From Sporosarcina psychrophila (GTDB lineage: Bacteria; Bacillota; Bacilli; Bacillales_A; Planococcaceae): a stretch of 64,000 nucleotides of DNA. The position numbers and the translations under genes were made by a program. The notes under the pieces were generated by a model. The model saw only the letters and a program-made list of their open reading frames with translations, was not told the origin of the DNA and did not search any database. This document shows, piece after piece, positions 39,877-53,640 of this stretch (position 1 is the first letter of the stretch; every line of letters begins with the position of its first letter). The stretch spans positions 991,001 to 1,055,000 of the forward strand of contig NZ_CP014616.1 of assembly GCF_001590685.1 (NCBI RefSeq), read 5' to 3'.

Positions 39877-40466
39877 CTTGATCACACACTGGGCGTTACG
39901 TGTATTGTTTTTTTTGTGTCGCTTTGAATTGAACAATTTCAATACCATTATCGAGATGTATTGATAAGTAGGGATGCGACTCTGTCGCATCCCTACTTAT
40001 TCTTTCGGTAATCGCATGGTTTTTGTTCATTTGCCGCTCTCCAAAGACATTGATACAAGAGGTGCCGAAGCTTTTTTGGACGAAAGAATGGCTAGCTTCT
40101 CACCTAGAGATAAGCGGTCAAAGATATAATTTTGACCGCTCAATCCTTCTCTATAGTATCTCCATATTTATTTTAAGGAAGTGTCAATTTCCTATAAGGC
40201 ATCACATAATCTTTGCAAAAGTAAGCAAAGAACGCAATGTACAACGTCCGAGAGTGCCCGAAATTGCATCTTCGGGCACTTACAATCTCTATAGAAAGTC
40301 ATCTTTTCTATTCTTTCAAAGCACCTGCCCCACGGTAATAATATCGTAATTAATTCGCCGAAAGCGGGCCGGAGATAGTAAAGGGTTATAGCGGTTTACA
40401 AGCCCTACTCGCTATCGTATTATGCAAGTCAATAATTAATCGACAGACGTGATTGTTTAATGAAGT
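39877..40466. repeat. Long multi-hairpin intergenic element, copy P
   Basis: About 590 bp homologous to 52922-53600. Three perfect hairpins: H1 at 39964-40000 (17-bp stem containing TAGGGATGCGAC), H2 at 40113-40140 (AGCGGTCAAA with TTTGACCGCT) and H3 at 40253-40280 (AGTGCCCGAA with TTCGGGCACT). Its end carries CCGAAAGCGGGCC and ATTAATCGACAGACGTGAT. It fills the fadE-yusI gap; no gene is seen there. Confidence 0.85.
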
Positions 40467-40555
40467 AAAATTGACGATCTCACTTTGACGTCCAGGTACC
40501 AATAGGCGCCCAGGTGTTTTTTCTGTTATAATGGCGAAAATGGAGGCGTTGCGGT

Positions 40556-40915
40556 ATGGGATTAGTTTATTACGGTTATCCAAAGTGCGGGACATGCAGG
40601 AAAGCAAAAAAATGGCTTGAGACGAACAACTTGGACTTTCAGGAAGTGAACATAGCGGAAGCTCCTCCTTCAGTAGAAGAACTTGGCAAAATGATTGCGG
40701 CATCGGATTTGGAGTTGAAAAAGTTTTTCAACGTTAGTGGGACGAAATATAGAGAGCTAAACTTGAAAGACAAATTGCTCACAATGACAGATGAAGAGAA
40801 AATTAGCTTGCTGTCATCTGACGGTATGTTGATTAAGAGACCAATTGTCTTCGGTGATGGTAAGGTGACTGTCGGATTCAAGGAAGAAGAGTTCGACAAA
40901 GTATGGACTAACTGA
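40556..40915 (+). CDS. ArsC/Spx-family protein (YusI-like)
   Basis: 119 aa with a thioredoxin-like ArsC fold. The redox motif C11-G-T-C14 opens the protein ('YYGYPKCGTCRKAKKWL'), as in Spx and MgsR. The late 'LIKRPIVFGDGKVTVGFKEEEF' is the family's C-terminal strand-helix. It corresponds by position and type to B. subtilis YusI, between fadE and gcvH. Its role (reductase or RNA polymerase-binding regulator) is not settled. GGAGG lies 10 bases before ATG 40556. Confidence 0.85.
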   Translation: MGLVYYGYPKCGTCRKAKKWLETNNLDFQEVNIAEAPPSVEELGKMIAASDLELKKFFNVSGTKYRELNLKDKLLTMTDEEKISLLSSDGMLIKRPIVFGDGKVTVGFKEEEFDKVWTN

Positions 40916-40990
40916 TTTCCTATCTTGTCTTTATTCGAGAAATATGACAGAATTGAAGAGAATGAAACTATTTATTTGGAGGGATACGGA

Positions 40991-41374
40991 ATGAGCACAC
41001 CAAAAGATCTGCGTTATTCTGAAGAGCATGAATGGGTAAAAGACGAAGGTGGTAACTACCGCATCGGTATTACTCACTTTGCACAATCTGAACTAGGCGA
41101 TATCGTATTCGTTGAACTTCCATCTGTCGGAGATGACATCAAAGCGGACGAGCCTTTCGGAAGCGTTGAATCTGTTAAGACAGTATCAGAACTTTATGCA
41201 CCAATCAGCGGAAAAGTAATTGAAGTGAATGAAGGACTTGAAGACAGCCCTGAATTTGTCAATGAATCACCGTATGAAAATGCATGGATGATCGTTGTTG
41301 AACCTTCAAATGTTTCTGAACTGGATGAACTTATGTCAGCTGAAGCGTATGAAAAAATGACTGTCGGAGAATAA
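40991..41374 (+). CDS. gcvH: Glycine cleavage system H protein
   Basis: 127 aa. The lipoyl carrier domain has the modified lysine K63 in '[18 protein letters not shown]'. It shuttles the aminomethyl group between the P and T proteins and in Bacilli also serves in lipoate transfer. ATG 40991 is chosen because GGAGGG lies 7 bases upstream; the in-frame start at 40925 is not supported. As in B. subtilis, it stands apart from the other gcv genes, and a terminator follows. Confidence 0.95.
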
Positions 41375-41385
41375 CTAAGACAAGG

Positions 41386-41410
41386 CGCCGGTACTTTTTC
41401 GGCGTTTTTT
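41386..41410 (+). terminator. Terminator of gcvH
   Basis: CGCCG, nine-base loop, CGGCG, six Ts. Confidence 0.85.
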
Positions 41411-41448
41411 GCATCTTTATATAAAAAAGAGCGAAGGAGGGGCCTCTT

Positions 41449-50973: not shown

Positions 50974-51403
50974 CAAATTAGATCAGTTATATCGTTCGGT
51001 CATCATGGACCATTATAAAAACCCTAGAAATAAAGGCGTCATCGAAGAAAGTAGCATAACTGTCGATATGAATAATCCGACATGTGGCGATGTGATCCAT
51101 CTGACTTTACAAATAGATGATGGCATTGTTCAAAATGCAAAATTCGAAGGCGATGGCTGTTCAATTTCAATGGCATCTGCGTCGATGATGACGCAGATTG
51201 TTAAAGGTAAAAAAGTGGATGAAGCATTAAAAGCGGCCTCTATCTTTTCGGACATGATGCTGGGCAAAGATGTTGACGACTCCATCGACCTAGGTGATAT
51301 TGAAGCACTTGCGGGAGTATCGAAATTTCCTGCCCGTATTAAATGTGCAACATTGGCATGGAAGGCGATGGAAAAGGGAGTCGGAAATGACTCCGAACAG
51401 TAA
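50963..51403 (+). CDS. sufU: Zinc-dependent sulfurtransferase
   Basis: 146 aa. The zinc ligands of SufU are all present: C41 and D43 in 'NPTCGD', C66 in '[10 protein letters not shown]' and the C-terminal Cys in '[11 protein letters not shown]'. It accepts persulfide from SufS. ATG 50963 has AAAGGAG 9 bases upstream; the longer open frame lies within sufS and is rejected. The extra segment between the two halves separates it from IscU. Confidence 0.95.
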
Positions 51404-51425
51404 CTAAAAGGACGGAGGAATAGTA

Positions 51426-52823
51426 ATGGCTAAAAAAATGCCGGATATCGGCGATTACAAATATGGGTTTGCTGACAAAGACGTTTCAATTTTCCGTTCG
51501 GAACGTGGTTTGACAAAGGAAATCGTTGAAGAAATTTCAGGGATGAAGAACGAACCTCAATGGATGCTTGACTACCGCCTGAAATCATTGGAAATGTTCT
51601 ACAAAATGCCAATGCCACAATGGGGTGGAGATCTAAACTCCCTTAAATTTGACGAGATTACTTACTATGTTAAACCTTCTGAAGGGGCGGAACGCTCTTG
51701 GGATGAAGTACCAGAAGAAATCAAGCGTACGTTTGATAAACTTGGTATTCCTGAAGCTGAACAAAAATACCTTGCAGGTGTTTCTGCACAATACGAATCT
51801 GAAGTTGTTTACCATAATATGAAACAAGAACTTGTCGACCTTGGAATTGTGTTTAAAGATACAGATTCAGCACTAAAGGAAGACGAAGAACTGTTCAAAA
51901 AGTATTGGGGAACAATCATTCCAAACTCAGATAACAAGTTCGCTGCATTGAACTCGGCTGTATGGTCAGGCGGTTCGTTCATCTATGTACCACCGGGCGT
52001 TAAAGTTGAAACTCCACTTCAAGCCTATTTCCGTATTAACTCGGAAAACATGGGTCAGTTCGAGCGTACTATGATTATTGTTGATGAAGGAGCAAGCGTC
52101 CATTACGTTGAAGGATGTACTGCACCTGTTTATACAACGAATTCACTTCACAGTGCTGTCGTTGAAATCATTGTTAAAAAAGATGCGTATTGCCGTTATA
52201 CAACAATCCAAAACTGGGCAAATAACGTTTACAATCTTGTAACGAAGCGTGCAGTTTGTGACGCAAACGCAACAATGGAATGGATTGACGGGAACATCGG
52301 CTCTAAATTGACGATGAAATATCCTGCAATCATTCTTAAAGGCGAAGGCGCACGTGGTATGACACTTTCTATCGCACTAGCAGGAAAAGGTCAGCATCAG
52401 GATGCTGGAGCGAAAATGCATCACCTTGCACCAAATACGTCTTCTACAATCGTGTCGAAATCAATTTCACAACACGGTGGTAAAGTAACGTATCGCGGAA
52501 TCGTTCACTTTGGACGTAAAGCAGATGGCGCACGCGCGAACATCGAGTGTGACACGCTGATTATGGATGACTTGTCGACATCTGACACGATTCCATATAA
52601 CGAAATCCTGAATGATAACATTTCACTTGAACATGAAGCGAAAGTTTCTAAAGTATCAGAAGAACAGCTCTTCTACTTGATGAGCCGCGGAGTTCCTGAA
52701 CTTGAAGCAACTGAAATGATCGTTATGGGCTTCATCGAACCATTCACAAAAGAATTGCCGATGGAATATGCTGTAGAAATGAACCGTCTTATCAAGTTTG
52801 AGATGGAAGGTTCAATCGGGTAA
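51426..52823 (+). CDS. sufB: Fe-S cluster scaffold protein
   Basis: 465 aa. It is the main scaffold subunit on which clusters form. Conserved stretches include '[11 protein letters not shown]'-like '[20 protein letters not shown]', '[14 protein letters not shown]' and '[20 protein letters not shown]'. The cluster-site Cys lies in '[12 protein letters not shown]'. GGAGG lies before ATG 51426. It ends the suf operon, and a terminator follows. Confidence 0.96.
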
Positions 52824-52834
52824 TTATCATATCG

Positions 52835-52863
52835 AAAAAACCGGCCACTAGGGTCGGTTTTTT
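52835..52863 (+). terminator. Terminator of the suf operon
   Basis: AAAAAACCGGCC, short loop, GGGTCGGTTTTTT. Confidence 0.9.
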
Positions 52864-52921
52864 CGTCTTTACATATATAGTCTGTCACACCTGTTTATAA
52901 ACTAAAATTTACCAGTGAATG

Positions 52922-53640
52922 ACGTGATCACCTACTTGGCGCTACGTGTATAGTTGCATTTGGATTGCTTTGGATTGAATGACGTCTATACCATTATCGA
53001 GAGCTCTGGATGTGTAGGGATGCGACTTTGTCGCATCCCTACACACTCTTTTCGGTAATCGTATGGTGGCCCTTCATCCGGCGCGCTCCAAATGTATAAG
53101 TACACGAAGTGCAGATGCTTTTTGGGACGAAAGAATAGCTGGCTTCTTACCTGGAGAAAAGCCGCCAAAGATGCAATTTTGGCGGCTGAAACTTTCTATA
53201 GGGTTTTCCCCTTTGTATTAGTGGAGAAGTGTCACTTTCTAGAAGGTATCACATGATTGCATGCATACTCTTTGCTAAAAGTAAGTAAGGAGCACATTGT
53301 ACAATGTGCAAAAGTGCCCGAAATTGCATCTTCGGGCACTTACAATCACTATAGAAAGTCAACTATTCGTTTCATTCAAACATAACTGCACTTTTCACTC
53401 GAACATTGTAGGAACGCGACAGGCAACTATTCACAACATGATTGCTGAATAAAGTGTAACTAGGCCCCCCTCAGTAAATCTGTCATGAATAATTCACCGA
53501 AAGCGAACCGAAAATGATCCAGTGAAAATGGATTTTCCCAAGCCCTACTCACCAATATTTCATGCAAATAAATGGTTAATCAACAGACGTGATATTCGGC
53601 ACTACTTATTTAGAATTAACTAGGTGGTATACTTCATCAA
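52922..53640. repeat. Long multi-hairpin intergenic element, copy Q
   Basis: The longest copy, ~720 bp, filling the gap between sufB and the DUF72 gene. Perfect hairpins: H1 at 53012-53044 (15-bp stem with TAGGGATGCGAC), H2 at 53160-53187 (AGCCGCCAAA with TTTGGCGGCT) and H3 at 53313-53340 (identical to copy P). Then follow the CGAACATTGTAGGAACGCGAC module, the CCGAAAGCGAACCG..CAACAGACGTGAT module and the ATATTCGGCACTACTT module. No gene is seen within it. Confidence 0.88.

Follow-up and report, generated by a model that had tools for sequence, protein, structure and literature searches.

What are the long, multi-hairpin repeats that recur in the gaps between genes of one Sporosarcina psychrophila chromosome? 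The question arises from a stretch of 64,000 nucleotides (contig NZ_CP014616.1, positions 991,001–1,055,000; hereafter the window, whose own numbering is used for all features described in it). A first-pass annotation had marked five such repeats here (P, Q, R, T and S) as copies of a single family, and had suggested, among other readings, a non-autonomous mobile element, a large structured RNA or a termination element. Alignment of the window with itself by BLAST pairs P with Q, R with T, R with Q, and pieces of S with other copies, confirming that the repeats exist. P and Q are members of the same family, here called F1. With a probability of roughly 0.9 we read F1 as a family of miniature inverted-repeat transposable elements (MITEs), apparently mobilised in trans by an IS4-type transposase, with an interior that carries terminator-like hairpins.

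F1 is ~730 bp at full length and its ends form a 19-bp inverted repeat, the element starting with CACRTSTGTTGATTAACCA and finishing with the inverse complement. These ends are sharp in an alignment of 39 chromosomal copies with their flanks. The end pattern TCACNTSTGTTGATTAACCA, allowing up to 3 mismatches, occurs at 116 sites on the chromosome (G000, a single contig of 4,674,191 bp) and a reversed-pattern control at none; 52 terminal inverted repeat (TIR) pairs lie among the G000 loci. Searching with P located at least 40 F1 places in this 4.67-Mb chromosome (63 pieces, E ≤ 1e-3), a lower bound because 40 of 90 candidate places were scored, and three further genomes of the genus hold at least 40 F1 matches apiece. 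R as query yielded 48 chromosomal pieces, likewise a lower bound (40 of 188 candidate places scored), of which five besides R itself match its F1 part only.

The flanks of the ends carry the mark of insertion. Flanking 9-bp repeats match at 8 or 9 of 9 positions in 67 of 120 TIR pairs, compared with 0.7 expected in shuffles, and mean flank identity is 0.746 at length 9 versus 0.31–0.35 at lengths 6–8 and 10–12; the 120 pairs are not 120 independent events, since the set includes insertion sequence (IS) copies and some orthologous sites. Half of these pairs (60/120) are spaced 640–765 bp apart, 33 of them at 721–737 bp. Another 31 are no more than 556 bp apart, implying that other short elements use F1-type ends. 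As far as tested, the view stands that the copies contain no believable gene: in 62 full-length copies the longest open reading frame (ORF) is 44–143 amino acids, and the commonest 60-bp bin of start positions accounts for only 14 of the 62. F1 thus combines target duplication, TIRs and the lack of a transposase gene, as expected of a bacterial MITE.

Both P and Q lie on the + strand, as do the other F1, F2 and F3 features of the window given below. P spans 39855–40451 (597 bp), with a degraded left TIR (5 mismatches) and a deletion of the region of the fourth of the F1 hairpins (H1–H4). Its left 9-bp duplication, ATCGTATAA at 39846–39854, includes the stop codon of an upstream ORF of 595 amino acids, and the right one, ATTGTTTAA at 40452–40460, is identical to it at 7 of 9 positions. 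Q spans 52886–53591 (706 bp) and retains both TIRs (4 and 0 mismatches). The limits first drawn for the two copies were roughly right, the true ends being slightly different. An alignment of P with Q covers 457 bp (76% identity, E 1e-87), and a second covers a right-end piece of 55 bp (78%). The three stem-loops reported for each are present in both: H1 at 39964–40000 in P, a self-complementary match, and at 53011–53045 in Q; H2 at 40113–40140 and 53160–53187; and H3 at 40253–40280 and 53313–53340. The H1 of Q has a T-rich tail and was called terminator-like by a terminator scan; that of P was not. The H2 stems of P and Q differ at paired positions in a compensatory manner.

Comparison across relatives reveals sites with and without the element. 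All 61 genomes searched match the P-region query, and the P gap was examined in 13 of 30 loci, that is, in G000 and 12 relatives. Seven of the 12 relatives (G031, G006, G082, G064, G081, G074 and G004) have no F1 in this gap. A same-orientation copy is found in G000, G027 (with an internal deletion) and G084, whereas G009 and G002 have an inverted copy that has lost an end; the gap in G014 (locus L152) holds an unrelated insertion. At the site of P’s target duplication the relatives read ATCGTTTAA. Two small ORFs in the G014 gap resemble, by eye, a toxin-antitoxin pair of the HigB/HigA type.

Some gaps appear to have been hit repeatedly. A hand count covered 13 gaps that hold the element both in G000 and in a relative, and at four of them (P, L007, L017 and L086) a relative has it in inverted orientation; this count excludes L021–L255 and L094–L258, where the element sits in another gap, and L112–L259, where a 385-bp element has the same ends and is not a full F1. 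Aligned element pieces at shared gaps are 72–90% identical. The duplications of L007 and L237 are offset by 3 bp and those of L017 and L270 differ (ATGTTGAAC vs ATATCGGAC), indicating that the same gaps were entered more than once. In-place inversion at these two sites is disfavoured because the duplications differ, and independent insertion fits better.

A candidate mobiliser is present in the genus, where the F1 end (1 mismatch) occurs in 18 of 68 genomes. In G078, two F1-type ends 1260 bp apart enclose a gene of 394 amino acids and are flanked by a perfect duplication, AGACAGGGG. The product, P0001, matches Pfam DDE_Tnp_1 (E 9e-31) and scores 213.7 bits against the NCBIfam model IS4_1 (NF033592; cutoff 115), identifying it from its sequence as an IS4-family DDE transposase; proteins of G002 and G006 score 200.9 and 189.1 bits. 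The genus thus contains IS of ~1.26 kb with F1-type ends and IS4-family transposases. Ten end pairs bear a transposase, nine of them 1255–1301 bp apart and one 1004 bp, and five of the ten have a perfect 9-bp duplication (G078, G002, G018, G088 and G014). Like F1, then, these IS have 19-bp ends and can be flanked by 9 bp of duplicated target. Unlike them, F1 has no transposase, and it starts mostly with CACGTC, CACATG or CACATC, where the IS start mostly with CACGCG or CACGTC. The suggestion of a non-autonomous mobile element was therefore right for F1, given its 19-bp ends, its 9-bp duplications and the IS4-family IS that share those ends.

The resemblance is confined to the ends. When four F1 copies were aligned with the IS sequences, the best matches fell at the element ends, and 41 of 187 weak matches lay away from them, the eight displayed having E values of 0.35–4.2 that look like chance; derivation of the F1 interior from an IS by deletion found no support in these four comparisons. 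Transposase homologues were detected at E ≤ 1e-20 in 27 of the 68 genomes, with none in G031, G009 or G084. Two longer spans with F1-type ends were considered as cargo transposons and rejected: in L301 (G031, 1596–3282) the ends are separated by 1687 bp and enclose an EamA transporter gene, and in L300 they are separated by 2716 bp and enclose a chemotaxis-receptor gene. Both have mismatched flanks and are probably neighbouring ends.

Several observations weigh against mobilisation by this group of transposases or against MITE status. A good target duplication is absent in 53 of 120 TIR pairs, and P’s own matches at 7 of 9 positions. The other five of the ten IS lack a matching duplication (2–6 of 9 positions match). 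The S. psychrophila chromosome holds just one distant transposase homologue, at 27% identity. The IS with the best end fit to F1 (G006, starting CACGTC) encodes a protein 47% identical to P0001, and no IS of this type was detected at E ≤ 1e-20 in G000, G031, G009 or G084; the intact IS of G002 has CACGCG ends. No movement of F1 has been observed. F1 is also longer than usual for a bacterial MITE, although the review PMC10969869 gives a length below 500 bp as typical, not as definitional. Because G000 is one contig, a close transposase partner is indeed missing there, and with only a distant homologue on the chromosome the F1 copies look orphaned; draft assemblies may have lost such partners. 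We infer that F1 owes its movement to this group of transposases, which the chromosome has lost, and that many of the copies are old.

We propose that a full-length IS with the same 19-bp ends would supply its IS4-family DDE transposase in trans, and that this enzyme would move the ~730-bp F1 into intergenic sites, producing the 9-bp duplication. The interior, seemingly not IS-derived, would bring with it H1, which resembles an intrinsic terminator on the + strand, H4, which does so on the − strand in about half of the copies, and the conserved H2 and H3. A copy would most likely amount to a tolerated insertion that may also stop transcription between genes.

The four interior hairpins were assessed in an alignment of 63 sequences (62 copies with both ends, 640–800 bp, plus P). 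The hairpins covary: two-sided changes occur at 24 of the 53 stem pairs, compared with 7.7 in shuffles that keep relatedness effects in, and in 85 alignment cells, compared with 12.7. Stem cells are paired in 96.7% of cases, against 93.6% when shuffled and 31–43% when slid, the slide control favouring the structure because it was taken from one of the aligned sequences. Folding the entire element as one consensus gives a weak result (RNAalifold −25.4 kcal/mol, covariation term −0.5, with H4 left out of the fold), so that support is limited to local hairpins and the suggestion of one large structured RNA is not borne out. Rfam returned no family over the copies, and only a lysine riboswitch (57627–57808) and a SAM riboswitch (42159–42264), both on the + strand, reached threshold in the window.

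Two of the hairpins look like terminators. At least 5 T within 8 bases follow H1 in 53 of 58 copies, and the equivalent on the − strand is found at H4 in 27 of 55, over a background of 7–8%; runs at H2 (6 and 7 of 63) and H3 (1 and 1 of 63) are at background or below. When one full F1 copy was scanned for terminators, H1 and H4 were called and no other hairpin (2 found; 0.7 in shuffles). H1 thus appears terminator-like on the + strand, and H4 on the − strand in about half of the copies. Termination in place is plausible on these features, and what survives of the suggested termination element is such a secondary property. Separately, a small hairpin module, GGAGGAATGAACTRCAATTCCTCC, was found with up to 4 mismatches at nine places in the G000 loci and its reversed control at none; four of the nine lie inside called F1 stretches, and the sites include L056 1827, L094 1680, L113 1472 and L126 1533.

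Compensatory changes need not reflect selection on RNA. They may instead arise from DNA-level correction of imperfect palindromes, by template switching or hairpin inversion, an explanation to which we give serious weight while placing it somewhat below even odds. The loops argue for it as a competing cause, since they occur in inverted form: H1, present in 96 of 144 elements, has the loop TTT in 58 and AAA in 5, or TTC in 17 and GAA in 2, and H4, present in 84 of 144, has GGA in 48 and TCC in 5. At the P site itself the same H1 stem carries the loop TCT in G000 and GAA in G084. By itself, however, such correction leaves the conserved loops of H2 and H3 and the T-runs of H1 and H4 unexplained.

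We are more doubtful that F1 is mainly a host-useful structured element, a terminator island or RNA kept by selection at each site, with transposition accounting for its spread only. The covariation and the T-runs described above speak for it, and stems also change less than their surroundings. Thirteen orthologous comparisons, some of them perhaps not strictly vertical, give differences at 60 of 1036 stem positions and at 824 of the 5979 others; at seven hand-chosen sites with one comparison each the counts are 27 of 593 and 399 of 3417 (p 2e-8). Two sites outside the seven agree (L236–L272, 5/106 vs 110/583; L040–L241, 6/106 vs 86/574), but the trend disappears or runs the other way in L244–L274, one of the seven (9/104 vs 40/578), and in L005–L271 (15/102 vs 85/573), and G+C-rich stems may mutate differently. 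Host usefulness also sits poorly with the deletion of H4 in P and several other copies, the deletion of H1 in some, the failure of P’s H1 to be called terminator-like, and the sites in related species that have no F1.

Gene context can be read in two ways. By a crude ORF-based gene call, none of 132 F1 pieces from G000, G009, G002 and G031 lies inside a called ORF, and the 126 that could be placed fall in 54 convergent, 59 tandem (31 in the same direction as F1, 28 opposite) and 13 divergent gaps. Convergent gaps exceed divergent ones (p 4e-7, with orthologous copies not independent; 25 vs 5 in G000 alone); window gaps of at least 60 bp are 26 tandem, 3 convergent and 3 divergent. A preference for gaps where two genes end would suit a host-useful terminator, although loss of insertions near promoters can yield the same bias.

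Decay of a single protein-coding transposon, which mosaic families and truncated copies might suggest, is very improbable as the origin of the copies in view of the short ORFs, their spread of start positions, and interior matches to the IS that look like chance.

The remaining repeats of the window do not belong to F1 alone, and the five copies resolve into three families and one mosaic. R is a fusion of two families: its left part (21070–21373) is the left portion of a family we call F2, starting at the F2 terminal repeat CTATAGATGTTGAC, and its right part (21374–21576) is an F1 right end with its terminal repeat. T (32434–32946) is an F2 without its left end, and S (37792–37996, 205 bp, inverted ends) is a complete member of a third family, F3. 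Further F3 pieces lie beside R (21671–21779, 109 bp) and directly against the right end of Q (53592–53639), the latter a left part aligning with S over 48 bp at 92% identity. R aligns with T over 251 bp (88%) and with Q over 211 bp (68%); S aligns with R in pieces of 55 and 66 bp, and matches R and T on the reverse strand at 75–76%. The single family of the first-pass annotation therefore stands for P and Q, while R, T and S are members or mixtures of F2 and F3.

F2 (T and left R) has the ends CTATATATGTTGAA and a length of ~490 bp; F3 (S and the pieces beside R and Q) has the ends CTATATATTCGGCAC, and the ends of the two share the sequence CTATATAT. Among 45 F2 pairs, none of the target duplication lengths between 2 and 12 is prominent, and F3 is represented by only five end pairs. 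The T gap lacks F2 in G009 and G064, as judged from flank-match coordinates, and some F1 copies sit within F2 ends by eye (L258, L236 and L028). F2-like pieces at positions 46195–47617 of contig C20 in G009 form an apparent tandem array.

Carriage by phages or plasmids was also considered: a full F1 copy (L034) had no match in either collection, and the exact H3 pattern was absent from the viral contigs. An F1 hairpin is present in three contigs (L345, L352 and L381) labelled Arthrobacter beigongshangensis REN13. Their G+C content is 39–43%, which we take to be too low for Arthrobacter, so the label on these contigs may be wrong. Elsewhere in the window, long tandem repeats with many self-matches occupy 11686–13450 within an ORF of 699 amino acids (11593–13692), and an adjacent pair of similar genes lies at 44223–46027 (72% identical over 739 bp).

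No description of the F1 family was found in the open-licence PMC literature; F1 is new in sequence as far as searched, and known in kind. The bcr repeats of the Bacillus cereus group are also intergenic Firmicute repeats with secondary structure, ~155 bp long and with ends other than those of F1. In the review PMC10969869, bacterial MITEs share with F1 the lack of genes, the TIRs, a short target duplication, intergenic AT-rich targets, stem-loops and a high copy number; F1 differs in its ~730 bp, compared with typically under 500, and in an interior not derived from any IS found. By the descriptions given there, SPRITE of Streptococcus pneumoniae has terminator-like sequences as F1 does, and SPRITE, RUP and BOX of the same species show clustering and nested insertion as seen here. 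The earlier view that the repeats belong to no known class was thus wrong in kind, MITEs being known, and of that interpretation the non-autonomous mobile element stands, without the single large RNA fold or a new repeat class; no observation made here points to a chromosome-organising role, which had also been suggested. F1 stands out for its length, for an interior that its likely mobiliser does not share and for covarying hairpins with opposed terminator features.

Unexplained intergenic repeats of S. psychrophila can now be assigned to a mobile element of known kind, whose ends are clear, whose duplication is 9 bp long and for which there is a candidate transposase family. Since the elements are numerous in the gaps of several Sporosarcina genomes, they bear on the 3′ ends of genes, on assembly and on comparative genomics. 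F1 might even be a passenger selected to be harmless, its opposed terminators insulating both neighbours and its hairpins kept site by site, an idea we consider rather unlikely. If true, F1 would act as a selfish insulator, distributing terminators among intergenic gaps and striking some of the same gaps repeatedly and independently in different species. The compensating hairpins offer a natural test of selection on termination against DNA-level correction of palindromes.

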